Shown: positions 4,650-22,971, counted from the stretch's first letter. The stretch: 35,894 nt of DNA from Candidatus Latescibacterota bacterium (GCA_020852055.1 JADZBP010000099.1:1-35894), one strand, 5' to 3'. Numbers and translations are program-made. The notes: generated by a model from the letters alone, not told the origin.

Positions 4650-5483
4650 TCAAGACCAAACAAAGACTTCTGGTTGTTCCGGGGAGTAGCCAATAAAAAC
4701 TGCCAACACGATCCTGGGCAGGTCGCCCGGTACGGCCGGCACCTCGTGAATACAGCGGGTATTGAAGAAGTAGAGGTCACCTGGTTCGAGGTCTACCCGG
4801 CAATGGGCGATGTTGTTCTCGGCCGCATACTGGTGAAAGGTGTTGTCGGCGATATGGGGCTGGATCTGAGGGGTCCACAGGCACTGGTGCAGGATGGCCT
4901 GGGTGCTTTCGCCCTGGTGGGTGGCGTTCTGGAAACAGAGCACTCCGGCAAACTGGTGGAGGTAGCGGGAGACGGCATAGTTGAAGCGTTCTTCTCGCAA
5001 CACCACGTGGTCGATGTGGGGGCGGTAGGTATGGCCGGTGTAATGGATGCGGAAGATGGCTGGCCCGTACTGGCGGCCATCGGGCTCGCGGGCCACCAGC
5101 ACCTGGTGCTCTCCGGCCAGGGTCTGGAGGGCGGCGTAGATCGTCTGCACCGGATCGTCGAAGCCGGCGAAGAGGGTCGAGAAGAGTTGGCGGGTGCCGG
5201 CGGCGTGCTGCAGAAAGCGTTCCTGATCCGCGCCTAGATTGCCCAGGCTGGTGCCGATGTCGATGCGGGACCGGGTATCCTTGCCCGAGGTATCCTGTGG
5301 ATCGCGGATCAGGCCCTGGTCGATGAAACGCCGGATCAGGCCCTGGCAATGGGCTGGGTCGAAGGCCCGGCGCAGGACGAAGGCGGGTACCTGGGTCTCG
5401 GCCAGGGCGCGCAGGGGGTCTGGGTACTGGGAGCGGAGGGTCTGCAGCTTCGTTTCGACCGGGGTCCAAGGGGCGGCGGGCAT
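4650..5483 (-). CDS. Fe(II)/2-oxoglutarate-dependent oxygenase-like protein
   Basis: A 277-residue cytoplasmic protein with the double-stranded beta-helix facial triad: HID (His156, Asp158) in RPHIDHVVLREE, and distal His246 in NTRCIHEVPA. Arg257 follows in DLPRIVLAVFIGYSP, the position that usually holds the 2-oxoglutarate carboxylate. LEPGDLYFFNTRCIHEV is the typical GD-F-H stretch of hydroxylases. The substrate is not predictable; prolyl/aspartyl hydroxylase-like or small-metabolite hydroxylation are both open. The ATG at 5483 is preferred over the upstream GTG at 5531 because AGGAG lies 6 bases before it. It is divergent from the PhyH gene at 5604. Confidence 0.82.
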   Translation of the reverse strand: MPAAPWTPVETKLQTLRSQYPDPLRALAETQVPAFVLRRAFDPAHCQGLIRRFIDQGLIRDPQDTSGKDTRSRIDIGTSLGNLGADQERFLQHAAGTRQLFSTLFAGFDDPVQTIYAALQTLAGEHQVLVAREPDGRQYGPAIFRIHYTGHTYRPHIDHVVLREERFNYAVSRYLHQFAGVLCFQNATHQGESTQAILHQCLWTPQIQPHIADNTFHQYAAENNIAHCRVDLEPGDLYFFNTRCIHEVPAVPGDLPRIVLAVFIGYSPEQPEVFVWS

Positions 5484-5508
5484 GGAGATCTCCTGGGTGA
5501 GTTGGCCT

Positions 5509-5538
5509 AATCTATTCAGGGGGAGGGACACGGGTCAA
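5509..5538 (-). promoter_or_regulatory. Candidate promoter for the minus-strand 2OG oxygenase
   Basis: On the minus strand TTGACC (5533-5538), an 18-base spacer and TAGATT (5509-5514) precede the ATG at 5483. This would leave a leader of about 20 bases containing the AGGAG site. Confidence 0.5.
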
Positions 5539-5603: not shown

Positions 5604-6437
5604 ATGCCCCCCATCGACAATGCCATGCCCGACCTGGAGCGCCGTCTGGAGTTTACTCCGGCGTCGGAGGATCGCGCCGCCAAACTTAGCCGGCAACAGG
5701 TGCGGGAATATAATGAGAAAGGCTTCGTGTTCCCTCTGGAGGTATTCAGCCCGGAGGAGGCCATCGCCAACCGGCGCTACTTTGACCAGCTCATGGAACA
5801 GGCGGCCCAGACCGGCTGGAACAGCTACTCGATCAATGGCTGGCATCAGCACTGCGCCGGCATCCACGACCTGGTGACCGAACCCCGTATCCTCGATTAT
5901 GTCCAGGATCTGCTGGGTGAAGATCTGGTCTGCTGGGGCACCCACTACTTCTGCAAGATGCCCGGGGACGGCAAGCGGGTCAGCTGGCACCAGGACGCTT
6001 CCTACTGGCCCCTCACCCCCAGTCAGACGGTCACGGTCTGGCTGGCCATCGACGACGCCGACCTGGAGAACGGCGCCATGCAGGTCGTTCCCGGCTCCCA
6101 CCGCCACGGGCAGATTTCCTTTGAGCCCAGCGCGGTCGAGGAGAGCAACGTGCTCAACCAGACCGTACACGGGGCGGAGCAGTACGGTGGGGCGCCGGTG
6201 GCCTTTGCCATGAAGGCGGGCCAGATCTCGCTGCACTCCGACCTGCTGCTGCACGGCTCAGAACCCAATCACTCCCAGCGCCGCCGCTGTGGCCTGACCA
6301 TGCGTTTCGTGCCGCCCCAGGTGCGGGCCCACCGCGGGTGGAACGGCCGTTCGGTGATCTGCCGGGGCCGCGACCCGGAGGGGCACTGGGCCCACGTGCC
6401 CCGACCCGCCGGCGAGCAGATTCCGGCCAAGGGGTGA
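5604..6437 (+). CDS. Phytanoyl-CoA dioxygenase (PhyH) family protein
   Basis: A non-haem Fe(II)/2-oxoglutarate dioxygenase of the PhyH/EctD superfamily, 277 residues. Iron ligands are visible as His129-x-Asp131 in SWHQDASYWPL and His217 in LLLHGSEPNHSQRRRCGLTM, where the following Arg should bind 2-oxoglutarate. LENGAMQVVPGSH is the family's classic central motif. Bacterial members hydroxylate diverse small molecules, so phytanoyl-CoA is only a family name here. AGGAG lies about 7 bases before the ATG. The family is especially abundant in Latescibacterota and related lineages, which supports the taxonomic guess. It is unrelated in detail to the divergent oxygenase at 4650-5483, although both share the fold. 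Confidence 0.9.
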   Translation: MPPIDNAMPDLERRLEFTPASEDRAAKLSRQQVREYNEKGFVFPLEVFSPEEAIANRRYFDQLMEQAAQTGWNSYSINGWHQHCAGIHDLVTEPRILDYVQDLLGEDLVCWGTHYFCKMPGDGKRVSWHQDASYWPLTPSQTVTVWLAIDDADLENGAMQVVPGSHRHGQISFEPSAVEESNVLNQTVHGAEQYGGAPVAFAMKAGQISLHSDLLLHGSEPNHSQRRRCGLTMRFVPPQVRAHRGWNGRSVICRGRDPEGHWAHVPRPAGEQIPAKG

Positions 6438-6529: not shown

Positions 6530-6979
6530 ATGGGCAGCCATTACCCGGGCACCGAGGGCGAGGTTCGCGCCCTCAACGCATATATCAAACTGCTGCGCGC
6601 CGCCGAGTCCTTGAACGCGCGCATGAGCCAGAAGGTGGCGGCCCACCGCCTGACCCTGAGCCAGTTCGGGGTGCTGGAGGTCCTTTGCCATCTGGGGCCG
6701 CTGCCGCAGTGCAAGCTGGGGGAAAAGCTGCTCAAGAGCAGCGGCAATATCACCATGGTGGTGGATAATCTGGAAAAGCTGGGTCTGGTGGAGCGCCGGC
6801 GCGATAGCGGTGACCGGCGGGTGGTCACCGTACACCTGACGCCGGAAGGGCGCGCGTTGATCGAGCGGATCTTCCCCGAGCATGTGGCGATCATCCTTGA
6901 GGAAATGGGGGTACTGGAGGGGGGGGAGCAGGATGCCTTGGCCCGGCTGTGCCGCAAGGTGGGCCTCAAAGGCGGCTGA
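6530..6979 (+). CDS. MarR-family transcriptional regulator
   Basis: A 149-residue winged helix-turn-helix regulator. The recognition region is SQFGVLEVLCHLGPLPQCKLGEKLLKSSGNITMVVDNLEKLGLVER, shown here only by its ends: SQFGVLEVL and VVDNLEKLGLVER. The wing is RDSGDRRVVTVHLTPEGRAL, a hallmark of MarR. Family members bind palindromic operators as dimers and are released by phenolic ligands or oxidation. The only Cys residues I see are in VLCHLG, PQCKL and RLCRKV; whether any is redox-active is unknown. It follows the PhyH gene by 92 bases, which include an unusually AT-rich stretch at 6470-6495, a likely promoter or operator region. Its targets may be itself and the neighbouring oxygenases. 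Confidence 0.92.
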   Translation: MGSHYPGTEGEVRALNAYIKLLRAAESLNARMSQKVAAHRLTLSQFGVLEVLCHLGPLPQCKLGEKLLKSSGNITMVVDNLEKLGLVERRRDSGDRRVVTVHLTPEGRALIERIFPEHVAIILEEMGVLEGGEQDALARLCRKVGLKGG

Positions 6980-6998
6980 GAGCGGGGCAACCTGCCAT

Positions 6999-7027
6999 GC
7001 CCTCAGGGGCGCGTTTTTTTGCGCGCC
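6999..7027 (+). terminator. Probable terminator after the marR-type gene
   Basis: A short GCCC/GGGC stem (6999-7010) is followed by GCG and seven T (7014-7020). A second overlapping stem GGCGCG/CGCGCC (7008-7027) uses the T run as its loop. The two are mutually exclusive. Strength is uncertain because the stem preceding the T run is only 4 bp. Confidence 0.45.
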
Positions 7028-7087
7028 TCCGAGACTTTGAGGCCTGGTCCGGCGTCCTAAGTAGGGACTTGTCGGTATTGGCGTTGA

Positions 7088-7116
7088 TTGTCAAGGCAGA
7101 CGAAAAAGAGAATACT
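7088..7116 (+). promoter_or_regulatory. Candidate promoter for the M6 metalloprotease gene
   Basis: TTGTCA (7088-7093), a 17-base spacer and AATACT (7111-7116), about 70 bases before the ATG at 7188. The -35 matches consensus at five of six positions and the -10 at four of six. Confidence 0.45.
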
Positions 7117-7187
7117 CTAACATAGGGGAGGCTCAACCGCCTCTTCCGCTGTGGCGCGGTGCTCAGTCTGGCGACAAGAGAGGTCCC

Positions 7188-10100
7188 ATGCAAGGGTTGG
7201 CCCTTCTTCTCTGCGCGGCCCTACTGGCGGTGGGGCAATCCGGTGCCGCAGAGCTGGTGTGCGCCGGCACCACCTCCTCGGCGTCACCTGGACGCAGCAT
7301 CGCCGGCAAGATCATCGCCGCCAGCGCCTCGCCCATGCAACTACACCGCGGCCAGGTGCAGGCTCTGGTCCTCTTTGGCCGCTTCGCCGACGAAACCCCG
7401 GCCTCGCATACCGCCCCCGAATACGCCACCCGCCTTTTTGCCCCCGACCAGGTGGGCAGTCTGACCCATTTCTATCACGCGATGTCTTCCGGGCAGTTCG
7501 AACTGCGGGGGCAGGCCATGTCCCGGCGTTATGCCTCGCTCCGCCCGGCTGCCGCCTACCTGAACCCCGCGCCGGGCAAACTGGGCAGCTACGGCCAGTT
7601 CGTCCGCGAGGTGCTCGAACAGGCCGACGCCGAGGTCGATTTTACCCGCTACGACAACGATGGCCCCGACGGGGTGCCCAATTCGGGGGATGACGACGGG
7701 GTGGTGGACTACCTCTTCGTGATGGTGAGTTCCACCCCGCGCGGTTTCATCCTCGACGGGGCTACAGGCATCGCGACCCTGGGCCTGAAGGGTCCCTTCA
7801 TCTCGGCGGACTGGGGGGCGAGGGGGCAGCCCATCCAGGTGCAGTCGGGCAGCGACCACGGCAGCATCGGCCAGGAGGGCACCTTCTCCCAGACCGTGGG
7901 CACCATGGCCCACGAGTTTGCCCACGGCATGGGTCTGCCGGACCTGTACGATCTGGATTACGACGATCCGGGAGAGGACAGCGCCGGGGTGGGGCGGTGG
8001 TGCCTGATGGGATGGGGCGCACACGGCTGGAAGGGCGACGATGGCCCCAATCCCTTTTCTGCCTGGTGCCTCAAGGAACTGGGATGGGTCGGGCTGGACA
8101 ACGAGCGCCTGGTAGAGGTGGGAGGCGACACCACGAGCCTGGAGTTGGCGGCCCTGCTGCAGGGGGGGCAAATCGCGCAACTGCCCCTGCCGGCGGCGGC
8201 GGTGGATGCCTTCAGCACCGCCGAGGAGTACCTGCTGCTGGAGCAGCGGACCCGCAGCGGCAGTTACTACGACCGCCACCTGCCCGGCGAGGGGCTGCTG
8301 GTCTGGCATGTGCGGCCCCAGTCGGGGACCAACAACGACGAACGCGCCAAGCAGGTCGATCTGGTCTGCGCCGACGGCCTGTACCAGGACGCCGGCTATC
8401 CTCGGGGCCGCCGCGCCGAGGGCAGAGAGGGCCAGGATAACCTCGATTACTGGGCGCACGACGAGGCCTTCAGCCAGGCGCACAACGGCAACATGGGCGA
8501 CGCCACCGACCCCTTTGACGGGACCCGCTTCACCCGGCTGGAAAAACTGGGCAACCCCTCCATCGATCCCTATGGCACCATCCCGGACCAGGCCCGTGGT
8601 CCGGGCCTGCGCCTGCGGCGCCAGGGCGAGCGCATGCGTATCGACGTGGAGCGCCTGCGCTGGGCCGGCACCATCCGCCGGGAGACGCACTGGGCCGGCG
8701 AGGTGCTGGTGGACGGCGACGTGCTGGTGGCGCCCGGAGGACGCCTGGTCATCCATCCTGGCACCCAGGTGCGTTTTGCCGGCAGCGATCGCCTGCACAC
8801 CGGCCGCGATCCGGGCCACAGCGAACTGGATATCCAGGGGGAGTTGATCATCAAGCAGGCGTCGGGGACGCGCAATGGCAAGGTGGTCGACAAGGTCAGC
8901 TTCGAGCCCCAGACCCCGGGGCAGAGCTGGTACGGGATCATCCTCAACCCGGCACACCTGGGCCGCATCGAGGTGCCCGACAGCAGTTATGAGATGCACG
9001 GCGCCCAGTACGACAACGTGCTCCTGCCCGGCGCCCCGCCCGACGCCCGCGGCAAGGTGGTCAAACAGGTGCGCCTCATCGACGTTTCTGGCCTGGAGAC
9101 GGCGGGCAACGGCGATGGCCGCCTGCAACCGGGCGAAACCTTCCGCTGCGTGGTGGAAATCGACAACTGGTCCCTGACTTCCTACGAGGAGGTGACCGCC
9201 GAACTGGCGTGGAACAGCGGGTCGATCAGCCTGGCCGACAAACCCCTGGAGCGGCGGGCCAAGTCGGCACCTGCCGGATTGTTCCCCGGCACCCAACTGC
9301 CCATCGAGATGCCGCCCTTCACCCTGAGCCCGGCCGCGGTGCCCGGGGACAGCCTGGTCCTTACCCTCAAATTGGGGTATAAAGGGAAAGCCAACTGGTC
9401 CACTGACAAACTCTCCTTTGCCGTCCAGGGGCGATATCCCGAACACCAGGTCCAGTTCGCCACCCCGGGCCAGGTACTGCGCGGCACCTCGGCGCGGCTG
9501 GTCGCCGGCCAGACCGCTCGGGTAGAGGTGCAGATTCAAGGGGATGTCACCGGCGCCGAGCTGGTATTGCGCTCGCTGCCCGAGTTGACGCCGCTGGCCG
9601 AAGTGGCCATGGTGCGCAAGGCGAATCGCCTGGGCAAGCGGGTGTTCGAAGGCCAGGTGCGTCTGCCGGAGCCGGGCCTGTACGAGGCGCGCCTGCGGGT
9701 GCAGGGGGCGGGTGGCACCGCAGCCTTCAGCCCGGCCTCCCTCGATCTGTGGGCCACCGCCGACCCGGACTCGCTGCCCATCCTGGTCTTGGTGGGCGAG
9801 GCTTACCTGGACAGCCCGCGGGCGGCGCTGCGCCAGGCGCTGGAGCAGTTGGCCGCCGAGCTGGGTCACCCGCTCTATATAGTGGACAGCGCGCCGTCCT
9901 CCCCGGCGCTGTACGAAGCCCTGCTGCCGCACTACGCCGGCACCGGGGAGGTGGTATTGTGGCTGGGCAAATCCATGGACCGGGATACCCAGGAGCTGCT
10001 TGCCGATTTCCTCGAGGGGGGCGGCAGGCTGGGGTTGATCTCCGGCACGCTCAATCTGTCCAGCAAGAGCAGCAGCAGTTCCCTGGCGCCCTTGCTCCAC

Positions 10101-13100
10101 GTCCAGAGCCTGACCCGCACCAGCGCGGTCGAGGTGCGTAGCCCGGACGCCGAGGAGGGCATCCAGTTCACCCAGGCGCACAGCGCCATGCAACTGCTCG
10201 CCCCGGCCGAACCGATGTTGCTCGACGACCAGCAGCAGGTGGCGGGCATGCGCTTTGAAAGCGGGACCTACCGGCTGGTCTACCTGCCCTTCGATCTGGA
10301 CAGCCGCAACAAACAGGCGGTGAGGCATCTGCTCGAATCGACCCTGGCCTTCCTGCGCGGGGCCATTGTCCAGGCAGCGCTGGAGGCGCCGGGGCGCGAG
10401 GTGGCCGAAGGGGTGAGTCTCCTGCCGGCGGGCGAAGGGGTGGCGGTGCTGGCCACCGCTGGCCGCGAGGTGGCCCAGGCCCGGCTGGTGCTCCGGTCCT
10501 TCCCCGCCATGGACAGCGTGCTCGAGGTGCCCATGCGCCGGCAGGCGGGGCAGTTCAGCGCCACTCTGGCCGTGCCGCCCGGAGTGGGCCATTATCACCT
10601 CTCCCTGCGCCTGCGCGACGCTCGGGGGAAGACGCTCTACAACACCGCTGGCCTGCAGGCCCTGGCCCTGATGCCCGAGCGGCCTTTCCTCCTGGTGTTG
10701 AAGGGACAGCGCCTGGCCCGCGACCGGACCAACCTGCAGACGCTCTTTACCGCCCAGGCTGAATCCCTGGGACTGAAAATGGCGGTGCTCGACGAGGGCC
10801 TGGCCGCCAGCGGCGAACTCTACCAGAACCTCCTGAGCCGCTACCTGGCCAAAGCTGAGCTGGCGGTGTGGCTGGGCGGGGTGATGGAAACGGCGGAGCA
10901 GGCCGCTTTCCGCGCCTTCCTCGGGCGGGGCGGCCATCTGTTGCTGGCTGCGGCCGGGCTGGGCAACACCGCAGAGGCCAAGGCCTTTGCTCAGGAACTG
11001 ATGCACGCCTCCTCGGTTTCGGCGGTGGGGACCAACGGCAACCGGGTGAACCAGTTGATGCGCAGTGCGGGCGCCCTGGAGGGGGCGGCGATGGAGTTTG
11101 CCGTGCCCCATAGCATCCTGGCCCTCTCGCCCCCGGCGCTGCCGGTGCTGCGGGACGGCAGGGGCGAGGTGGCCGGCCTGCGGGTGGACACCGGGGGGTA
11201 CCGGGTGGCCTATCTGCCTTTCGAACTGACGCGGATCAGCCAGGCGCTGGTGCCGGCCCTGGTCAGCCCGCTGCTGGCCTTTCTGCACCGGGGCGAGGGC
11301 AGGGCGGCGACGTTTGAGGCCGACGGCATGGGCGGGGCGGGGAATCTGCTGCTCACGGCTCCGGGCCGCCCCTTTACCCTGCGGGTGCGGGCCGACGCCA
11401 GCGCCGCGGCAGTGGTCGCCTTCAGCCTGCCCGGCATGGACTCGGTGGCCCAGGCCCCGCTGCGGCTGCAGCAGGGGGTCTTCTCCGGTGAACTGACCTT
11501 GCCGGCCTCGGGGCAATATCTGCTGATGACCCGCCTGACCCGAGGGGATCAGTCCTTTTTCAGCGGCCGCAGCGTGCAGGCAGCGCCCTATCTCTTCACC
11601 GGCGGGAACCAGGCCCTGATTTTTGTCGACGAGCGGTACACGGCCGCCGAACGCCAGGCCCTCAGGATCGATCTGGAGGAGTCGTTGGGCGGTCTGGGGA
11701 TGCGGGCGGATTTTGTCGACCAGGCGCCTGCCGAAGCGCTGCTCTACCAGGCCCTGCTGGAGCGCTACCTGGAGCCGGGCAAACTGGTGGTATGGCTGGG
11801 CCGCGACCTGGGAAGCGCAGCGCAGGCGGCTTTCAGCCGCTTTGCCGAACGCGGTGGCCGGCTACTCCTGGCCTCGGCCTATCTGCCCCAGGGCGAGAGC
11901 GGCGTTTTCCTGCGCCAGGTTTTCCGCATCCAGGCGGCAAAGGCCTCATCACAGAAGGAGGCCTTTGCCGGCATCGGGGAGGAGTTCTCCGTCCGCTATT
12001 TTCCCCTCACCCTTGAGGCGCCGGCCACGGCCGCCCTGGTGAGCCGCAACGGCGGGGTGGCCGGCCTGCGCCTCAACACGGGCACCTACCGGGCGATGTA
12101 CCTCGCCTTTGATCCCAAGAACATCGAGCCGCCGGCCGGGCGCCGCGGGTTGTTCACGGCGGCGTTCACCTTCCTCGGCGCACCGGCCAGCACCCAGGCG
12201 CCGGTGGTGATCAAGCAGGTGATCGCGCCCGGGCCGGTGGCAGTGCTCGGGCCGCTGGTACCCCAGGTGGTGGTGCGCAACGACGGCACTCAGATCACCT
12301 CGCGGTTCCGGGTGGGTTACCAGGTCCTGCGCGGCGACAAGGTGCTGCTCAGCACCGACCAGGAGGAGTTGCCCCTGGCTGCCGGTGGTGAACGCACCCT
12401 GAGCTTGCCGCCCTGGGTGCCGGTGGTGGCCCTAGACCTGCACCTCCGTCTCGGGGTCCGGAGCGGGACCGGCGAGTGGGAATACCTGCCGGCCCAGCCC
12501 CTGCGCCTGGTCGAGGCCCTCACCCGTTTTGCCCAGGTGGGCCTGCCCGGCGAGACGGGCGCCGGCAACGGGGCGGGTTTCGTCGACGCCGACAACGACG
12601 GGGATCTCGACCTGTACCTGGTGCGCCGGCTGGGGGCCAACCAGTACTTCCGCAACGGAGGTGATGGTTTTGCCGAGCAGGGACAGGCTGCGGGCCTGGC
12701 CGACCAGGGGTTGGGCCGCGGCCTGGCCCTGGGAGACTACGACGGCGATGGCGATGTGGACCTCTTCCTGGTCAACGAGGACGAAGACCATCTCTTCCGC
12801 AACGAGGGGGGCGGCCGTTTCGCCGACCGCACCGCCCAGGCCGTGGCCGACTCCTTCACCTCGCTGGCCGACGGGGGCTCGGGCCGCAGCGCCGGCTTTT
12901 TCGACAGCGACAACGACGGCGACCTCGACCTCTACCTGGTCAACTCCAGTGGACCCAATCGCTTTTTCGTCAACGAAGGTCGGGGGTTTGCCGAACGGGC
13001 GGCGGTCCTGGGCCTGGCCGACGAGGGCACCGGCAAGGGGCTGGCCCTGGCCGATTGGGACAGCGACGGGGATGTGGACCTCTTCGTGGCCATCCAGAAC

Positions 13101-14168
13101 GGCGGCAGCCGGCTCTACCGGAACGAACGCGGGCGCTTCACCCCGATGAACGAGGCGCTGGGGCTGGATTTCGCCGAAGGGCAGATTGGTCCCGCCTTCG
13201 GCGATTACGACGGGGACGGCGACCTGGATCTCTTTGTCGCCAACGAGTGGAGCACCAACGAGCTGTGGCGCAACGACGGGGGCTCTTCTTTTGCGCTCCT
13301 GGCCGACAGCCTGGGCCAGAAGAGCACCGGGGCGGGCTGGGGCGACTTCGACAACGACGGCGACCTGGATCTGCTGACCACCGCGGTCAATGTCGCGGCC
13401 GGCGGCGACCAGTTCTTCCAGAACCGCGGCCAGGGCTCGCTGGTGCCAGCCGGCAGCCTGATGGACCTCAGCCCGGTCAGCAACGGCCGGGGCCTGAGCC
13501 TGGCCGACTACGACGGCGACGGCAACCTCGACCTCTTTGTCGCCGACAGCGAGAAGAGCCGGCTCTACCACAACGAGGCGGGGCGCGGCCACTGGCTGGA
13601 ACTGGAACTGGCCGGCCCGGCCGCCAACCGCCAGGGCCTGGGCGCCCAGGTCGAGGTGGTGGCCGGGGGCCGGCGCCAGACCCGCCAGCTCTTTGCGGCC
13701 TTTGGCTACGCCAGCCAGGGACCGGCGCGCCTGCATCTGGGCCTGGGCCGGTCCGCGCAGGTGGACACCCTGAAGGTGCGCTGGCCGGACGGGACCCGCA
13801 GTGTGCGGGCCAGGGTGGCCGCCGACCAGCGCCTCGAACTGCGCCATCCGGCCCTGGTCCAGTCCCGCAAGACGGCCAGCGGGTCCGCCTTGCAGGCGGG
13901 GCTCCTGCCCGCTTATCCGAACCCCTTCAACGCCGCCACCCTCATCCGTTTCGCGATTGCCCAGCCCGGCAGGACGCAGCTGGAGATCTACGATCTGCTC
14001 GGGCAACGGGTGCGGGTGCTGGCCGAAGAAGCGCTGGCTGCCGGGGCGCACCAGCGCCTGTGGGACGGCCGCGACCAGGCTGGCCTGCCGGTGGCCAGCG
14101 GGGTGTATTTCTGCCGGCTGTACAGCGCCGGCCAGTTGTTCCGCCAGCGCCTGCTCCTGCTCAAGTAG
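7188..14168 (+). CDS. Giant secreted M6-family metalloprotease with FG-GAP, UnbV and C-terminal sorting-like domains
   Basis: 2326 residues, predicted exported. A signal peptide covers roughly residues 1-20. The M6 (immune inhibitor A-like) zinc protease domain spans about 40-470, with His242-Glu243 and His246 in MAHEFAHGMGLPDLYD. Beta-sandwich segments follow. Next are three diverged copies of a module of about 305-310 residues (starting near 777, 1083 and 1395). Each copy is an Ig-like strand region plus an alpha/beta domain with a VVWLG...GGRLLLAS core. Seven FG-GAP/VCBS calcium-loop repeats (DADNDGDLDLYL type) lie at about 1785-2120, an UnbV/CRTAC1-like domain at about 2155-2225, and a FlgD-like/T9SS-type tail with AYPNPFN at about 2240-2326. 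The protein probably digests or binds extracellular protein. AGAGAGG precedes the ATG. It is likely co-transcribed with the DUF2914 gene. Substrate and export route are unknown. Confidence 0.9.
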   Translation: MQGLALLLCAALLAVGQSGAAELVCAGTTSSASPGRSIAGKIIAASASPMQLHRGQVQALVLFGRFADETPASHTAPEYATRLFAPDQVGSLTHFYHAMSSGQFELRGQAMSRRYASLRPAAAYLNPAPGKLGSYGQFVREVLEQADAEVDFTRYDNDGPDGVPNSGDDDGVVDYLFVMVSSTPRGFILDGATGIATLGLKGPFISADWGARGQPIQVQSGSDHGSIGQEGTFSQTVGTMAHEFAHGMGLPDLYDLDYDDPGEDSAGVGRWCLMGWGAHGWKGDDGPNPFSAWCLKELGWVGLDNERLVEVGGDTTSLELAALLQGGQIAQLPLPAAAVDAFSTAEEYLLLEQRTRSGSYYDRHLPGEGLLVWHVRPQSGTNNDERAKQVDLVCADGLYQDAGYPRGRRAEGREGQDNLDYWAHDEAFSQAHNGNMGDATDPFDGTRFTRLEKLGNPSIDPYGTIPDQARGPGLRLRRQGERMRIDVERLRWAGTIRRETHWAGEVLVDGDVLVAPGGRLVIHPGTQVRFAGSDRLHTGRDPGHSELDIQGELIIKQASGTRNGKVVDKVSFEPQTPGQSWYGIILNPAHLGRIEVPDSSYEMHGAQYDNVLLPGAPPDARGKVVKQVRLIDVSGLETAGNGDGRLQPGETFRCVVEIDNWSLTSYEEVTAELAWNSGSISLADKPLERRAKSAPAGLFPGTQLPIEMPPFTLSPAAVPGDSLVLTLKLGYKGKANWSTDKLSFAVQGRYPEHQVQFATPGQVLRGTSARLVAGQTARVEVQIQGDVTGAELVLRSLPELTPLAEVAMVRKANRLGKRVFEGQVRLPEPGLYEARLRVQGAGGTAAFSPASLDLWATADPDSLPILVLVGEAYLDSPRAALRQALEQLAAELGHPLYIVDSAPSSPALYEALLPHYAGTGEVVLWLGKSMDRDTQELLADFLEGGGRLGLISGTLNLSSKSSSSSLAPLLHVQSLTRTSAVEVRSPDAEEGIQFTQAHSAMQLLAPAEPMLLDDQQQVAGMRFESGTYRLVYLPFDLDSRNKQAVRHLLESTLAFLRGAIVQAALEAPGREVAEGVSLLPAGEGVAVLATAGREVAQARLVLRSFPAMDSVLEVPMRRQAGQFSATLAVPPGVGHYHLSLRLRDARGKTLYNTAGLQALALMPERPFLLVLKGQRLARDRTNLQTLFTAQAESLGLKMAVLDEGLAASGELYQNLLSRYLAKAELAVWLGGVMETAEQAAFRAFLGRGGHLLLAAAGLGNTAEAKAFAQELMHASSVSAVGTNGNRVNQLMRSAGALEGAAMEFAVPHSILALSPPALPVLRDGRGEVAGLRVDTGGYRVAYLPFELTRISQALVPALVSPLLAFLHRGEGRAATFEADGMGGAGNLLLTAPGRPFTLRVRADASAAAVVAFSLPGMDSVAQAPLRLQQGVFSGELTLPASGQYLLMTRLTRGDQSFFSGRSVQAAPYLFTGGNQALIFVDERYTAAERQALRIDLEESLGGLGMRADFVDQAPAEALLYQALLERYLEPGKLVVWLGRDLGSAAQAAFSRFAERGGRLLLASAYLPQGESGVFLRQVFRIQAAKASSQKEAFAGIGEEFSVRYFPLTLEAPATAALVSRNGGVAGLRLNTGTYRAMYLAFDPKNIEPPAGRRGLFTAAFTFLGAPASTQAPVVIKQVIAPGPVAVLGPLVPQVVVRNDGTQITSRFRVGYQVLRGDKVLLSTDQEELPLAAGGERTLSLPPWVPVVALDLHLRLGVRSGTGEWEYLPAQPLRLVEALTRFAQVGLPGETGAGNGAGFVDADNDGDLDLYLVRRLGANQYFRNGGDGFAEQGQAAGLADQGLGRGLALGDYDGDGDVDLFLVNEDEDHLFRNEGGGRFADRTAQAVADSFTSLADGGSGRSAGFFDSDNDGDLDLYLVNSSGPNRFFVNEGRGFAERAAVLGLADEGTGKGLALADWDSDGDVDLFVAIQNGGSRLYRNERGRFTPMNEALGLDFAEGQIGPAFGDYDGDGDLDLFVANEWSTNELWRNDGGSSFALLADSLGQKSTGAGWGDFDNDGDLDLLTTAVNVAAGGDQFFQNRGQGSLVPAGSLMDLSPVSNGRGLSLADYDGDGNLDLFVADSEKSRLYHNEAGRGHWLELELAGPAANRQGLGAQVEVVAGGRRQTRQLFAAFGYASQGPARLHLGLGRSAQVDTLKVRWPDGTRSVRARVAADQRLELRHPALVQSRKTASGSALQAGLLPAYPNPFNAATLIRFAIAQPGRTQLEIYDLLGQRVRVLAEEALAAGAHQRLWDGRDQAGLPVASGVYFCRLYSAGQLFRQRLLLLK

Positions 14169-15350: not shown

Positions 15351-16382
15351 ATGCCGCCATCCGAGAAAAACGAACGCCTGCTCATCGTCGACGACACCCC
15401 CCAGAATCTCCAGGTCCTCGGCACCATCCTGCGCCAGCAGGGGTACAAACTCAATGTCGCCCAGAATGGCCGGCAGGCCCTGGAGGTGGCGAACAAAAAC
15501 CCGCCCGACCTGATCCTGCTCGATGTGATGATGCCGGAGATGGACGGTTTCGAGGCCTGCCGCCACCTCAAGGAAGACCCGCGCACCCGCGATATCCCCA
15601 TCATCTTCCTGACCGCCAAGACCGGGTCTGAGGACATCGTGCAGGGCTTCGAACTGGGCGGGGTGGATTATGTGGGCAAACCCTTCAATCCGGCCGAATT
15701 GCTCAAACGGGTGCAGACCCACCTGGAGTTGAAGGCGGCCCGCGAGCAGATCCAGGGACTGGCCACCAAGTTATCCCACTACCTGCCACCGCCGGTCTAC
15801 GACTCCCTGTTTTCGGGGGAACGGGACGCCCGCATCGAGTCGCGGCGCCGGCCCCTGACCATCTTCTTCACCGACATCGTCAAGTTCACCCCCCGGTCGG
15901 AGCGCATGGAGCCAGCCGAGTTGACCACCTGGCTCAATACCTACCTGAACGACATGGCGCAGATCTGCGCCCAACACGGCGGCACCCTCGACAAGTTCAT
16001 GGGGGACGGGATCATGGGGTTCTTCGGCGATCCCCAGACCAAGGGGGCGCCGGAGGATGCCCTGTCCTGTGTGCGTATGGCCCTGGCCATGTGCCAGCGC
16101 GCCGCCGAACTAGAGGTGCCCATCCGGGTGGGCATTGCCAGCGGCGAATGTACGGTGGGCAACTTTGGCAGTGAGACCCAGATGAGCTACACCATCATCG
16201 GCCGGCAGGTGAACCTGACCGCCCGTTTGGAGAGCAATTCGGAGCCTGGGCGCGTTCTGGTTTCGGAGGGCACGTACGAGCTGATCAAAGGGCAGGTCGA
16301 ATGCCAGCCCCGCGGCCCCATCCTGGTCAAAGGCATCGAACACGAGATCAACACCTTCTGGGTGGAGCGGCTGAAGTCCTGA
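15351..16382 (+). CDS. Response regulator with class III adenylate/guanylate cyclase output
   Basis: 343 residues. The N-terminal receiver (about 8-125) has acidic pocket Asp14-Asp15, phospho-acceptor Asp58 in [13 protein letters not shown] and Lys110 in [13 protein letters not shown] short helical linker contains [13 protein letters not shown]. The class III cyclase domain (about 165-340) keeps both metal aspartates, Asp175 in [10 protein letters not shown] and Asp219 in [14 protein letters not shown]. It also keeps the purine-specifying Lys215 and the transition-state pair Asn288/Arg292 in VNLTARLES. The Lys in KFMGD favours ATP over GTP, so cAMP is the likely product. The enzyme should be cytoplasmic and switched by phosphorylation. 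It heads a run of five further signalling genes and is the only clear effector among them, so it is the natural output of the kinases downstream. Confidence 0.92.
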
Positions 16383-16404
16383 ACGGCGCTCTCAGTTGAA
16401 AACA

Positions 16405-16418
16405 GGCGGTTCGCCGCC
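16405..16418 (+). other. UUCG-tetraloop hairpin between the cyclase and kinase genes
   Basis: GGCGG-TTCG-CCGCC forms a perfect 5-bp stem closed by a UUCG tetraloop, an unusually stable RNA element. It lies in the 52-base gap just before the GAGGA ribosome binding site (16422-16426) of the next gene. No T run follows, so it is more likely a stability or processing element than a terminator. Confidence 0.55.
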
Positions 16419-16434
16419 AGCGAGGAAGTGTTCT

Positions 16435-19400
16435 ATGTGGAAGAAGATCACCGGCCTCAAATTGACGGGCAAGATCAACGCCATGATCTTGCTCACGGTG
16501 CTGGTCATGGCGGGGCTGACGGTGTACGCCCATGGCCGTTTCCAGGCCTTTCAGGTCGAGTTGACTTCGCAGTTGATGAAGAGCACCTCGACCCTGGTGG
16601 CCCTGCCGCGGGCCAACCAGCGGGTGATCGAGATGGGCAGCCTGGTCAACCGGGCACTCACCCTGGACCACGAAGAGCAGTTGCGGGCCACGGAGGAGGA
16701 GCTCAAACTCCAGCGCCAGCACTTTGAGGAGAATATCGCCGAGGCCCGCCGCTTCTACCCCGAGTACGAGGCGCGGCTGGGCAGGATCGAAATGGAGTTC
16801 AGCCAGCTACAGGGGGAGGGCCTGCAGGTGGTGCAGGCCATGCTGCAGGGCAACGCCGCCCAGGCGCGGATGGTGCTGGTCGCTCAGTTCGAGGTGCACT
16901 CCCGCCTGCTGGTGCGCACCATACGCGAGCTGGGCAACGAGATCATCGCCCGCGAGCAGGAAAAGACCGCCGGGGAGAACAGGTTGATCGACGAGGAGAT
17001 CGTCGGCATCTGGAAGGTGCTCATCCTCAGCGCCCTGGTGCTGATGTTGGTGGCCGGCATCTTTGCCCGCGCCCGCATCGTCCGGCCTATTGTTGAACTC
17101 TCCCGCGCCATGAAAAGGTTGGCCGGCGGCGCCACCGACGTCCACCTTGAGGTCAACGGCCGGCGGGATGAGGTGGGGGAGATGCTGGGCAGCTTCCACG
17201 CCTTCCGCGAGGCCTTTGTGGAAAACCAGCGCCTGCGGCAGGAGGAGGAGGCCCGGCGGCAGGAGGCGGCGGAGAACAACCGCCGGCTGCTGGAGCAGAA
17301 TGAGCAACTGGCCCAGTTGCAGCAGGAGGCGCAGCGGACCCGCGAGCAGACCGAACTGATCCTCGGCGCGGCGGGAGAGGGGCTCTTCGGCATGGACACC
17401 GAGGGGCGGATCACCTTCGTCAACCCGGCGGCCTGCCGCATGCTGGGGTACGCTGGCGACGAGATGGTGGGGCAGTCCTCCCACGAGTTGTTCCACCACT
17501 CGCGGCCCGACGGCAAGCCTTATCCGGCCGAGGAGTGCCCGATGCGGGCGGCCTATAAACTCGGGGTGGTGTCGCGGGTGGAGGACGAGGTGCTGTGGCG
17601 CCGCGACGGCAGCGCCCTGCCGGTGGAGTACAACGCCACCCCCATCCTCCGGGGCACCCGGATCCTCGGCGCGGTGATCAGTTTCAACGACACCACCGCC
17701 CGGCGGGCCGCCGCGGAGAAGCTGCGCTCCCGCGAGGAGCAGTTCCGCAAACTGCTCGACGCCACCCCCGACGCCATGCTGGTGTCGGATGGCGAGGGCT
17801 TGATCACCATGATCAACCGCCAGGCCGAGGTGTTGTTGGGGTATACCCGCGAAGAGTTGCTGGGAAAATCGGTGGATAACCTGGTGCCGGAACGTTTCCG
17901 CGCCGGTCACCCCTCGCTGCGGGAGGGGTACGTCCGCAACCCGGATAACCGGGGCATGGGCAGCGGTCGTCCACTGTGGGCTTTGACCAAAGACGGCCGC
18001 GAGATCCCCATCGAGACCAGCCTCAGCCCCATCGAGACCGACGAAGGGCTGATGGTGATCAGTGCCCTGCGCGACATCACCGAGCGCAAACAGGCCGAGG
18101 AAAAGCTGCAGTTGGCGAATTTTCTCAACGACAACGCCCTCGACCTGACCAAGGCCGGCCACTGGCATATACCGCTGCAGGACGAAGCGGGCTGCTACAT
18201 CTCGTCGGAACGGGCCGCCGCCATCTTCGGCGATCCGCCGCGGGAGGGGTGGCGCTATCACCTGATGGACGAGTGGTTCGCCAATGTCACGGCGGGCGAC
18301 AGGGAAGCGGCGGAGGCGACGCTGGAAAACTACAGCGCCGCCCTGGCCGGGACCGTGCCCCGGTACGACGCCATTTATGCCTATAAACGCCCCATCGACG
18401 GCAGGGTCGTGTGGATTCACGCCATCGGCCATGTGGTCAGGGACGCCCAGGGCAACCCCACCGATATGTATGGCGTGACCCAGGACATCACCGAGCAGGT
18501 GCAGGCGGCCAAGGCCCTGGCCGAAGAGCGCGAGCGTTTGAGCGCGGCCATGGCCGGGGCCAACCTCGGCCTCTGGGACTGGCAGGCCGACCCCGACGTG
18601 CTCACCACCAACGATCTATGGTCTGAGATGTTGGGGTACCAGCGGGAGGAACTGGACGCGCTGTACGGCAACACCGCCGCCCGCTGGGCGAATATGGTCT
18701 ACCCCGACGACCTGGACACAGCGGTCTCCAACTTCAAGCGCTTCGTCAACAACGAGATCCATGAGTACCGCATGGAACTGCGGATGAAGACCAAGTCGGG
18801 AAAACCCAAGTGGGTGCTCTCCGCCGGGGATGCGGTGGGCCGGGACGAAACCGGCAAGGTGATCCGGATGGTGGGTATCCACCAGGACATCACCGAGCGC
18901 AAACAGTGGGAGGCGCAGGATCGCCTGATCGCCGCGGTGCGCGATGCCATCTGGCGTCTGGACGAGAGCAGCACCGAACACGACCTGACCGCGGTGATGC
19001 ACCGCGCCCTCACCGAGGCCGAGGTGCCGGTGTGGGCCTGCTGCATCAATCTGGTGGATGCGGCGGTAGACCCGCCGGCGGTGACCATCCACGGCTACAG
19101 CGTCAATGGCGGGCACAATGTCAAGGCGCTGGAACCCCAGCACGTGCCGCTGGTGGTCGATTTCTGGAAGAAGGGCGAGGTGGCCTATAGGCCGGACCTG
19201 CGCCTGGAGGACAGCCTGGGCGAGCGCAAGGGTTTCCCCAGTGGAGCGGTGCTCTGTATCGTCGATATCCCTTTCTCACGCGGCACCCTGGCACTCAACA
19301 GCCACGAGGCAGACGCTTTCGGCCCCTGGCTGGCGACCCTGCAGGAACTGGCCGTCGCCTTGTCCGAGGGTTTGCAGCGCCTCGACGATCTGCGGGCCCT

Positions 19401-22400
19401 GCGGGCGCGGACCGAACAGGCCGAGACCTCGGCCAAGGCCCTGGCCGAGGAGCGCGAGCGCCTGCAGAACATCCTCGACACCAGTCCGGTGAGCATCGCC
19501 TTCTCCACCAAGGGGATCTTCCGCTTCATCAATCCGCGTTTCGCCGAGACCTTTGGGGTCAAGGTCGGCGACCGGGCACCTGATATCTACGTACATGCGC
19601 ACGAGCGGGACACCCTCATCGCTTTGCTGAAGACCGAGGGCAAGGTGCAAAACCACGAGGTGCGCATGTACGACCGCGACCAGCGCGAGCGCGACATGCT
19701 GGTCACCTACCTGCCCATCGACTACGACGGCGAGGAGGGCGTCCTCGGCTGGCTGCTGGACATCACCGAGCGCAAACAGGCCGAGCGCGAGATCAGCGAG
19801 AGCCAGCAGCGCTTCAACCTGGCATTGCGGGGCACCAACGCCGGCCTGTGGGATTGGCACGCGGATACCGGCCAGGTGATCACCAACGAAATCTGGGCCG
19901 AGATGCTGGGGTACACCAAGCAGGAACTGGACGAGTTGTACGGTGCCCGCCTGGAACGCTGGTCCAGCCTGGTGCATCCCGACGACCTGCCCTACGCCAT
20001 GGCGGAACTGAACAAACACGCCAAAGGGGAAACCGAGGATTACCGTGCCGAATACCGGATGCGCACCAAGGGCGGAGGATGGACGTGGATCCTGGACACC
20101 GGCAGGGCCTCGGAGCGCGACGCCGAAGGCAACGCGCTGCGGATGGTGGGCACCCATCTGGACATCACCGAGCGCCGGAGCCGCGAGATGCGGGATGGCA
20201 TCCTGGCGACCATCCGCGAAACCATCTGGCGGCTGGACGCCAACAGCTCGGTAGACGATCTGGCCCAGGTGATCCATCGGGAACTCAGCAGACTAGGCCT
20301 GCCGGTTATCACCTGTGGTTTCAACCTGGTCGACCCCTCGACCGATCCTCCCGCAGTGGAACAGCACTTCTACGAGGTCGGCGCCGGCAACTACACCCAT
20401 CGCCCCGATCCGGCGGGGGTGGAGACGATTGTGGCCTTTTGGCAGAAAGGGGAGGTCGCGTACCGGCGTGATCTGTGGGACGATCCCGACTCGGAGGAGG
20501 CGCAGGGCTTCAAGCGGGATCGGCGCGACGAGATCCGGTGTGTGGTCGATATTCCCTTCGCCCGCGGCACCCTGGCCTTCAACAGCCGGGAGGTGGATGC
20601 CTTCGGGCCCTGGCTCGAGGTGCTGGGTGAACTGCCGGGGGTGCTGAACGAGGGGCTGCAGCGCCTCGATGACCTGCGGGCCCTGCGCGAGCGCACCGAA
20701 CAGGCCGAGGAAGCCAAAGAGGTCGCCGAAGCGGCGTCGCAGGCCAAGGCCGATTTCCTCGCCAATATGTCGCACGAGATCCGCACCCCGATGAACGCCA
20801 TCATCGGCATGGCCCACCTGGCGCTGCGCACCAAGTTAGATCCGAAACAACAGGACTACCTGGACAAGATCCAGCGCTCCGGCCAGCACCTGCTGGGCAT
20901 CATCAACGACATCCTCGACTTCTCGAAGATCGAGGCCGGCAAGCTCGACGTGGAGACCACGGACTTCGAACTGGACAAGGTGCTCGACAACCTGGGCAAC
21001 CTGATCGGCGACAAGGCCACGGCCAAAGGGCTGGAGCTGATCTTCGACCTGCCTCCGGATCTGCCCAACAATCTGCGCGGCGACCCGCTGCGCCTGGGCC
21101 AGGTGCTGATCAACTACGCCAACAATGCGGTGAAGTTCACCGAGAAGGGCGAGATCATCGTCCGCGTTCGCACGGTGGAAGAGGACGAGCGCGGGATCTT
21201 GACGCGTTTCGAGGTGCAGGACTCGGGCATTGGTTTGACCCCGGAGCAGAAGGCGCGGCTCTTCCAGGCCTTCCAGCAGGCCGACACCTCGACCACCCGC
21301 AAGTACGGCGGCACCGGCCTGGGGTTGGCCATCTCAAAAAAACTGGCCGACCTGATGGGTGGCGAGGTGGGGGTGGAGAGCGAGCCGGGCCAGGGCAGCA
21401 TCTTCTGGTTCACCGCCCGTCTGGGTCGGGGTGAGACCAGAAGGAAGGTGCTGCTGCCCGAGCCGGATCTGCGCAACCGGCGTCTGTTGGTGGTGGAGGA
21501 CAATCCGCAGGCCCGGCAGATCATGACCGAGATGCTGGAGAGCATGACCTTCCGGGTGGATGAGGTGGACACCGGGGAGAAGGCCCTGTCGGCGATCTCG
21601 GAGGCCGAGACCATCGGCGATCCCTTCCACATGGTTTTCCTCGACTGGCGCCTGCCTGGCATCGACGGCATCGAGACGGCCCGGCGCATCGCCGCCGCGC
21701 CGCTGAAAAACCCGCCGCACCGGGTGATGGTGACGGCCTACGGGCGCGAGGAGGTCTTCCGCGAGGCCGAAGGGGCGGGCATCGAGATCGTGCTGGTCAA
21801 GCCGGTGAATCCCTCCATCCTCTTCGACGCGGCGGTCCGCGCCCTGGGCGGCCATCTGGTGGAGGAGGAAGGCGGGCCAGTCCAACGCGGGGCGGGCACC
21901 ACCGAGGCGGACCTGGAGTCGATCAAGGGAGCGCGGGTGCTGCTAGTGGAGGACAACGAACTGAATCAGCAGGTAGCCATGGAACTGCTGAGTGAGGGCG
22001 GGTTGGTGGTGGAGTTGGCCGAGAACGGCGAGGTGGCGTTGCGCATGGTAGGGGAGAGATCCTACGACGCGGTGCTGATGGACATGCAGATGCCGGTGAT
22101 GGACGGGGTGGCGGCGACGCAGGAGATCCGCCAGGATGCCCGGTTCGCCAACTTGCCCATCCTCGCCATGACGGCCAATGCCATGGCCGGCGACCGGGAT
22201 CGGTGTCTGGCGGCCGGCATGAACGACCACGTGGCCAAACCCATCGATCCGGAGGTGCTCTTCGCCGCGCTGCTGCGCTGGATTCCGGCGCGAAAGTCCG
22301 AGCCGGCACCGACGCCGACCGCCAAAGCCCCGGCCACCAGGTCTGCTGGTGCCGCGGACCCGCTGGCAGCCATTCCCGGCCTCGATACCCGAGCGGCGCT

Positions 22401-22971
22401 GAAACGGATGCTCAACAAGCGGCCCATGTACGAACGCCTGCTGCGCCAGTTCGCCGCCGAACAGGCAGGGGCGGTGGCCAAGGTGCGCGCCGAACTGGAA
22501 GGTGGGGACCGGGCCAGCGCCGAACGGTCGGCCCATACCCTCAAAGGTATGGCCGGCACTCTGGGCGCCGGGGAGCTGCAGCAGCGGGCGGCGCTACTGG
22601 AACAGGCGCTCAAACAGGAGCGTGCCGTGGCCGAGTGTGAGCAACGGATGCAGTCCGCTGAGGAGGAGTTGCTGCGCGTGGTGGCGGCCCTGAAAGCGGC
22701 CCTGCCGGAGGAAGAGCCCACCAACGGGGTGCCCGCCCCGGCGGTGGCGGTGGACTGGGCCCGGGCCAAAGAGGTGGTGGAGCGATTGCAGGGGCTGCTG
22801 ACTGCGGACGATGCGGAAGCCATCGATCTGTTCGAGCAGGAGGCCGAGCTCCTGCGGCCGGCACTGGGGGCGGGGGCGGCGCCGGTGGAGCAGGGCCTGC
22901 AGGACTGGAACCTGGCGGCGGCGCTGGAGGCGTTGCGCCGGACCCGGGCAGCGCAGCCATCCCTATCGTGA
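16435..22971 (+). CDS. Giant membrane hybrid histidine kinase (HAMP, six PAS, two GAF-like, HisKA, HATPase, two receivers, HPt)
   Basis: About 2178 residues. The ATG at 16435 follows GAGGA by 8 bases and is preferred to a TTG at 16396. Order: TM1 (about 14-32), helical-bundle extracytoplasmic sensor, TM2 (about 192-214), HAMP (about 211-266), coiled coil, PAS1-4 (about 302-822), GAF-like 1 (about 832-989), PAS5 and PAS6 (about 1011-1251), GAF-like 2 (about 1254-1416). HisKA follows with His1447 in [15 protein letters not shown], then HATPase with VQDSGIGL and [10 protein letters not shown]. The receivers carry Asp1737 ([11 protein letters not shown]) and Asp1883 ([12 protein letters not shown]), and HPt has His2034 in [14 protein letters not shown]. 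It ends in a conserved helical tail. All phosphorelay residues are intact. PAS4-GAF1 and PAS6-GAF2 are an internal duplication. The signal is unknown; cytoplasmic PAS/GAF sensing seems dominant. Confidence 0.93.

Follow-up and report, generated by a model that had tools for sequence, protein, structure and literature searches.

The window, a 35,894-nucleotide stretch of DNA from Candidatus Latescibacterota, contains an open reading frame for a large M6 metalloprotease, in which an original prediction made from the sequence had placed three diverged copies of an Ig-like plus alpha/beta module at 9517-12180, between the protease and FG-GAP parts. This raises the question of what the repeated module is, how widely it is distributed and what it may do inside a protease.

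Gene order and triplication of the module

Profile searches (Pfam and NCBIfam) and self-alignment of the protein gave the following order of features, in window coordinates.

7188-14168, + strand: single open reading frame, M6 metalloprotease with the triplicated module, 2326 aa
7188-7250, + strand: likely signal peptide (MQGLALLLCAALLAVGQSGAA), from reading the sequence
7380-8309, + strand: M6 catalytic domain (TIGR03296, PF05547)
8631-9434, + strand: region after M6 in common with the insert-less counterpart of congener G003 (about 55-60% identity)
9435-13892, + strand: block of three modules, linker, FG-GAP and UnbV, missing in the syntenic counterpart of G003
9489-9770, + strand: copy 1, Ig-like half (self-alignment)
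9771-10361, + strand: copy 1, GATase-like alpha/beta half (self-alignment, homologue alignment)
10422-10679, + strand: copy 2, Ig-like half (self-alignment)
10680-11294, + strand: copy 2, GATase-like alpha/beta half (self-alignment, homologue alignment)
11349-11606, + strand: copy 3, Ig-like half (AlphaFold2; strands at module residues 8-78)
11607-12182, + strand: copy 3, GATase-like alpha/beta half (AlphaFold2, model residues 89-277; Foldseek PDB search with the whole module)
12567-13607, + strand: FG-GAP repeats, outer bounds approximate (PF13517, 7 stretches, E 1.3e-44)
13635-13835, + strand: UnbV_ASPIC domain (PF07593, E 1.1e-19)
13902-14168, + strand: C-terminal T9SS type A-like sorting / FlgD-Ig tail (TIGR04183, PF13860)

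The order along the 2326-aa protein was thus M6, modules, FG-GAP, UnbV and tail, in agreement with the position proposed for the module. The M6 domain matched PF05547 with 43.5 bits (Pfam cut-off 22) and TIGR03296 with 116 bits in a six-frame scan of the genome and 110.4 bits on the protein (cut-off 110.8), and its zinc motif HEFAHGMGLPDLYD (HEFAH, HExxH type) begins at 7911. Six calcium-loop motifs of the DxDxDGDL type were found in the FG-GAP region (at 12585, 12735, 12903, 13053, 13203 and 13344), and the tail matched PF13860 (FlgD-Ig) with 32.3 bits (cut-off 27).

Copies 1, 2 and 3 corresponded to residues 768-1078, 1079-1387 and 1388-1672 (window 9489-10421, 10422-11348 and 11349-12203), with a pairwise identity of 32-35% over 257-311 residues (BLAST E 1e-26 to 1e-30). 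Smith-Waterman scores between copies were 284-299, about 38 SD above shuffled sequences (maximum 70 in 500 shuffles), and the repeat was not seen in the remainder of the protein by the same alignment test (scores 39-54). The triplication was therefore confirmed, all nine motifs quoted for it were found in the order claimed, and the strong divergence of the copies rules out an assembly duplication. The proposed bounds were accurate within about 30 bases, except that 9517 is one base off the reading frame (9516 or 9519).

Predicted fold and family assignment

Copy 3 was modelled with AlphaFold2 from an alignment of the other two copies and three homologues (pLDDT 84.2, pTM 0.69). The model showed six to seven strands up to residue 78, forming an Ig-like half, followed by alternating alpha and beta elements at 89-277, so that the proposed composition of the unit held, and structure prediction and fold search, the check suggested for it, gave an alpha/beta domain for this copy. 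The Ig-like half is modelled as a beta-sandwich of about 85 residues; a viral structure library matched mostly this half of copy 3 (BFVD, 84-100 columns, target TM up to 0.80).

When the whole copy 3 model was compared with the PDB using Foldseek, proteins with GATase-like domains were matched at E values from 5e-7 to 5e-5. The best was the GH5 enzyme Op5Man5 (7bob, E 5.4e-7), and the others included aminodeoxychorismate (ADC) synthase (E 9.3e-7, probability 1.00), GH164 Bs164 (6t5o, E 2.6e-6), a beta-1,2-glucosyltransferase of Ignavibacterium (7vkx, E 8.9e-6) and chain BBB of E. coli aminodeoxychorismate synthase (187 residues, E 1.0e-5, target-normalised TM 0.56). The query TM was just 0.40-0.48 because the model aligned only in part; from the alignment length and the types of target, we read the aligned part as the GATase-like domain. 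On the model, then, the alpha/beta half is a class I glutamine-amidotransferase-like fold. The prediction had left the choice between a glutamine-amidotransferase and a flavodoxin-type fold; the second was rejected, since none of the 50 top-ranking PDB matches was a flavodoxin.

Cysteine is absent from all three copies, and across six homologous alpha/beta domains neither an acid nor a base nor a nucleophile is conserved throughout, as had been anticipated from the lack of obvious catalytic residues. The invariant columns of these six domains were G, L, Y, W, F, G, G, L and G, plus Y and F where present; being limited to these residues, they exclude a classical GATase triad, and such a pattern would be expected of a structural or binding domain.

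No Pfam or NCBIfam model scored over its cut-off on the triplicated region, so the view that the repeat belongs to no named domain stood at the level of sequence families, while its fold turned out to be one already described. The best sub-threshold Pfam matches were GLMA_2nd (20.2 bits, cut-off 27.7) and DUF4350 (19.7 bits, cut-off 30.4), which we take to be members of GATase-like groups, and NCBIfam gave no match at all on the module. A six-row profile of the Ig plus alpha/beta unit gave only sub-threshold matches to PDB sequences, with 7vkx at E 0.07. These sub-threshold similarities point the same way as the predicted fold.

The module can be set beside four known systems. It is like the class I GATase superfamily (ADC synthase, 8hx8 / 8rp2) in its alpha/beta fold (Foldseek E about 1e-6 to 1e-5), but it lacks the catalytic Cys that acts with His and Glu in those enzymes, is paired with an Ig-like half in a predicted exported protein and has no family-level sequence match. 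Its best PDB fold matches were the trimerisation (B) domains of the GH42 type (7bob, 6t5o, 7vkx); in those proteins a TIM barrel precedes the domain, which touches the barrel of the neighbour, whereas the Latescibacterota module follows M6 and is Ig-paired in tandem. The CBM87 domain of Agd3 is likewise an alpha/beta/alpha domain inside a secreted multidomain enzyme, but one module member matched it only at chance level in sequence (E 0.12), and it was not among the top 50 Foldseek matches. Finally, the protein shares with M6 proteases bearing a T9SS tail (TIGR03296 plus TIGR04183) the HExxH catalytic domain, the sorting tail and the presence of SprA in the genome, and differs in its middle, which here consists of three Ig plus alpha/beta modules and FG-GAP/UnbV and in the paralogues of other repeats.

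Distribution of the module and predicted export of the protease

An HMM of the alpha/beta half detected the module in 4 of the 64 genomes of the phylum (G000, to which the window belongs, G001, G003 and G063), always in M6 proteases or the remnant of one, and in G000 the full module is carried by one gene only. In G003 (contig C201) and G063 (C149) the M6 domain is followed by a single Ig plus alpha/beta module; the sorting tail comes directly after it in the G063 protein, and the C201 contig ends just past it. A weak match in G060 (E 0.008) sits in a glycosidase-like protein. Two other M6 proteins (L123 of G003 and L018 of G000) contain regions weakly related to the Ig half.

A profile search of genome contigs with the M6 domain yielded 80 loci, mostly labelled Latescibacterota and some Gemmatimonadetes, which sets the lineage of the window in or near Latescibacterota; none carried the module except the records matching G003 (L144) and G063 (L164). 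The same kind of search with the alpha/beta alignment gave no relatives, and no plasmid or viral contigs with the module were found. The idea of a general module of the secreted proteins of this lineage was thus rejected by the HMM searches of the 64 phylum genomes and the 80 M6 loci. Among the CAMAVQ records (L093, L096, L100, L101, L124 and L155, titled 'Gemmatimonas phototrophica isolate MaH-09apr19-249'), the M6 genes matched those of congener G004 and the L101 and L077 reading frames aligned identically; the organism name looks wrong.

Eleven M6 domains were found in G000, on contigs C4, C29, C48, C75, C99, C111 (two), C159, C202, C251 and C305. The paralogues examined keep M6 and, where Pfam was applied to it, usually the tail, and they differ in their middles, which contain WD40, sortilin/BNR, carboxypeptidase regulatory-like repeats or a right-handed beta-helix. 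With M6 and tail constant and the middle swapped, the middle probably sets the targeting. The tail of the window protein reached 34.1 bits with TIGR04183 (cut-off 23) and 16.7 bits with Pfam Por_Secre_tail, under the cut-off of 27. SprA, a protein of the T9SS translocon, was present in all 20 genomes examined, the window's own among them (SprA_N, 102 bits), which together with the sorting tail suggests that the protease may be exported by T9SS. M06 peptidases are among the enzymes proposed to attack algal-wall glycoproteins in single-cell Latescibacteria genomes (PMC4454575); nothing was found in the papers searched on M6 with FG-GAP, nor on Latescibacteria with type IX secretion.

One locus in four congeners and the possible role of the module

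The flanks of the locus are syntenic in four congeners, with htpG and proA upstream and a gene for a DUF2914 protein downstream. Elsewhere in the window, a 293-aa protein (4650-5531, - strand) matched the WelO5 carrier-protein-independent halogenases (74.7 bits, cut-off 27). WelO5 halogenases have His-x-Gly at the site where this protein reads His-Ile-Asp (YRPHIDHV), and it may be a hydroxylase-type relative. A PhyH (phytanoyl-CoA dioxygenase family) gene adjoins it (5604-6437, + strand), and both genes are also on the syntenic G004 contig. At 15351-22971 (+ strand) lie a response regulator-adenylate/guanylate cyclase fusion (15351-16382) and downstream of it, a hybrid histidine kinase of 2191 aa that combines HAMP, receivers and Hpt with many PAS domains.

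The protease gene was found in a different state in each congener. G000 has the full 2326-aa protein. The G003 counterpart (C147 = L171, JACPJE010000292) is an M6 protein of 844 aa that lacks the modules and FG-GAP block; it shares 60% identity with the window protein across residues 1-749 and 77% identity in its tail, the protein junction falling at residues 749 / 2236 and the DNA gap at 9186-13910. In G001 (C69 = L016) the equivalent of window 6967-11470 is lost and the gene begins within the Ig-like half of copy 3, leaving a remnant of the long form (L016 1329-4032, - strand) with a frameshift near residue 1632. Since G001, like others, is a metagenome bin, an assembly error may explain this frameshift; contiguous upstream synteny supports the 5' truncation. 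In G004 (C130) the gene is missing, with about 36 bases in its place.

Among M6 relatives with a recognisable tail, the closest ones (up to about 880 aa) lack the block, their tail lying 12-61 residues beyond the aligned region, and in an unrooted tree of the M6 region the window and G003 proteins are adjacent, outside the rest of that set. Both observations make gain of the block by insertion in the window/G001 lineage, rather than loss in G003, the simpler account. A genus tree from HtpG had support of 24-50 and was poorly rooted, so that it is also compatible with loss of the block in G003.

Judging from the dead GATase-like domains, the tandem Ig modules, the FG-GAP part and the middles exchanged among paralogues, the triplet and FG-GAP/UnbV probably form a non-catalytic stalk or contact arm of a predicted exported M6 protease, an explanation that we favour with moderate confidence. 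The zinc metalloprotease would be exported, presumably via T9SS, the modules would hold it away from the export tail and let it touch substrate or matrix, and the block would have arrived as a unit and been readily lost. A GATase-like fold is able to acquire other chemistry. A model of all three copies (905 aa, pLDDT 52, pTM 0.31) gave no confident relative arrangement, which leaves rod-like spacing conjectural. The loss or decay of the block in congeners implies that its function is dispensable, and the position of the tail almost directly after the shared region in the insert-less counterpart implies that the protease needs no long stalk.

The main rival, possible at a tentative level, is that the GATase-like halves bind carbohydrate or glycoprotein, the triple copies giving avidity for an extracellular polymer whose protein part M6 cuts. 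The top fold matches are glycosidases with such a domain, the alpha/beta/alpha domain of Agd3 can bind glycan (PMC7229062), and the chance-level CBM87 match and the proposal on algal-wall glycoproteins (PMC4454575) lean the same way; however, GH42-type enzymes use the domain for quaternary structure and not for sugar (PMC8233224), and no cluster of conserved aromatics was found on the surface, the shared residues being one Trp, in a core strand by alignment, and two Tyr.

It is rather unlikely that the block accreted neutrally, as a mobile segment of protein with no selected role in the protease. The full, block-less, truncated-frameshifted and absent states at the same locus would fit such drift, but the 2326-aa frame is intact, as are the FG-GAP and UnbV motifs, and core residues are kept among copies at about 33% identity, which argues that the copies have stayed foldable over a long time. 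Equally doubtful is that the dead GATase-like plus Ig unit is a new Latescibacterota family of extracellular binding modules, tandem-amplified and moved in a block with FG-GAP/UnbV into M6 proteases to retarget them.

Highly improbable is an intra- or intermolecular trimerisation device like the related domain of GH42, GH5 and GH164 glycosidases, as the B-domain fold matches and the copy number of three might suggest, because the B domains of Op5Man5 have no mutual contact and touch the TIM barrel of the neighbour (PMC8233224), the window protein has no such barrel, relatives carry one copy and the three-copy model shows no confident arrangement; a pseudo-trimer of trimerisation domains was rejected on the published contacts and the low pTM of that model.

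The protein is thus a rare and labile case in which known folds are combined in an unusual way within a known protease family, and not a new system. If the stalk or contact-arm reading is right, an unnamed Ig plus inactive GATase-like module would join the catalogue of extracellular domains, and the same locus would present, within one genus, a large predicted exported protease with and without a middle of ~1,480 residues. The 11 M6 domains with their swapped middles suggest how these uncultured bacteria may diversify their protein-degrading tools.
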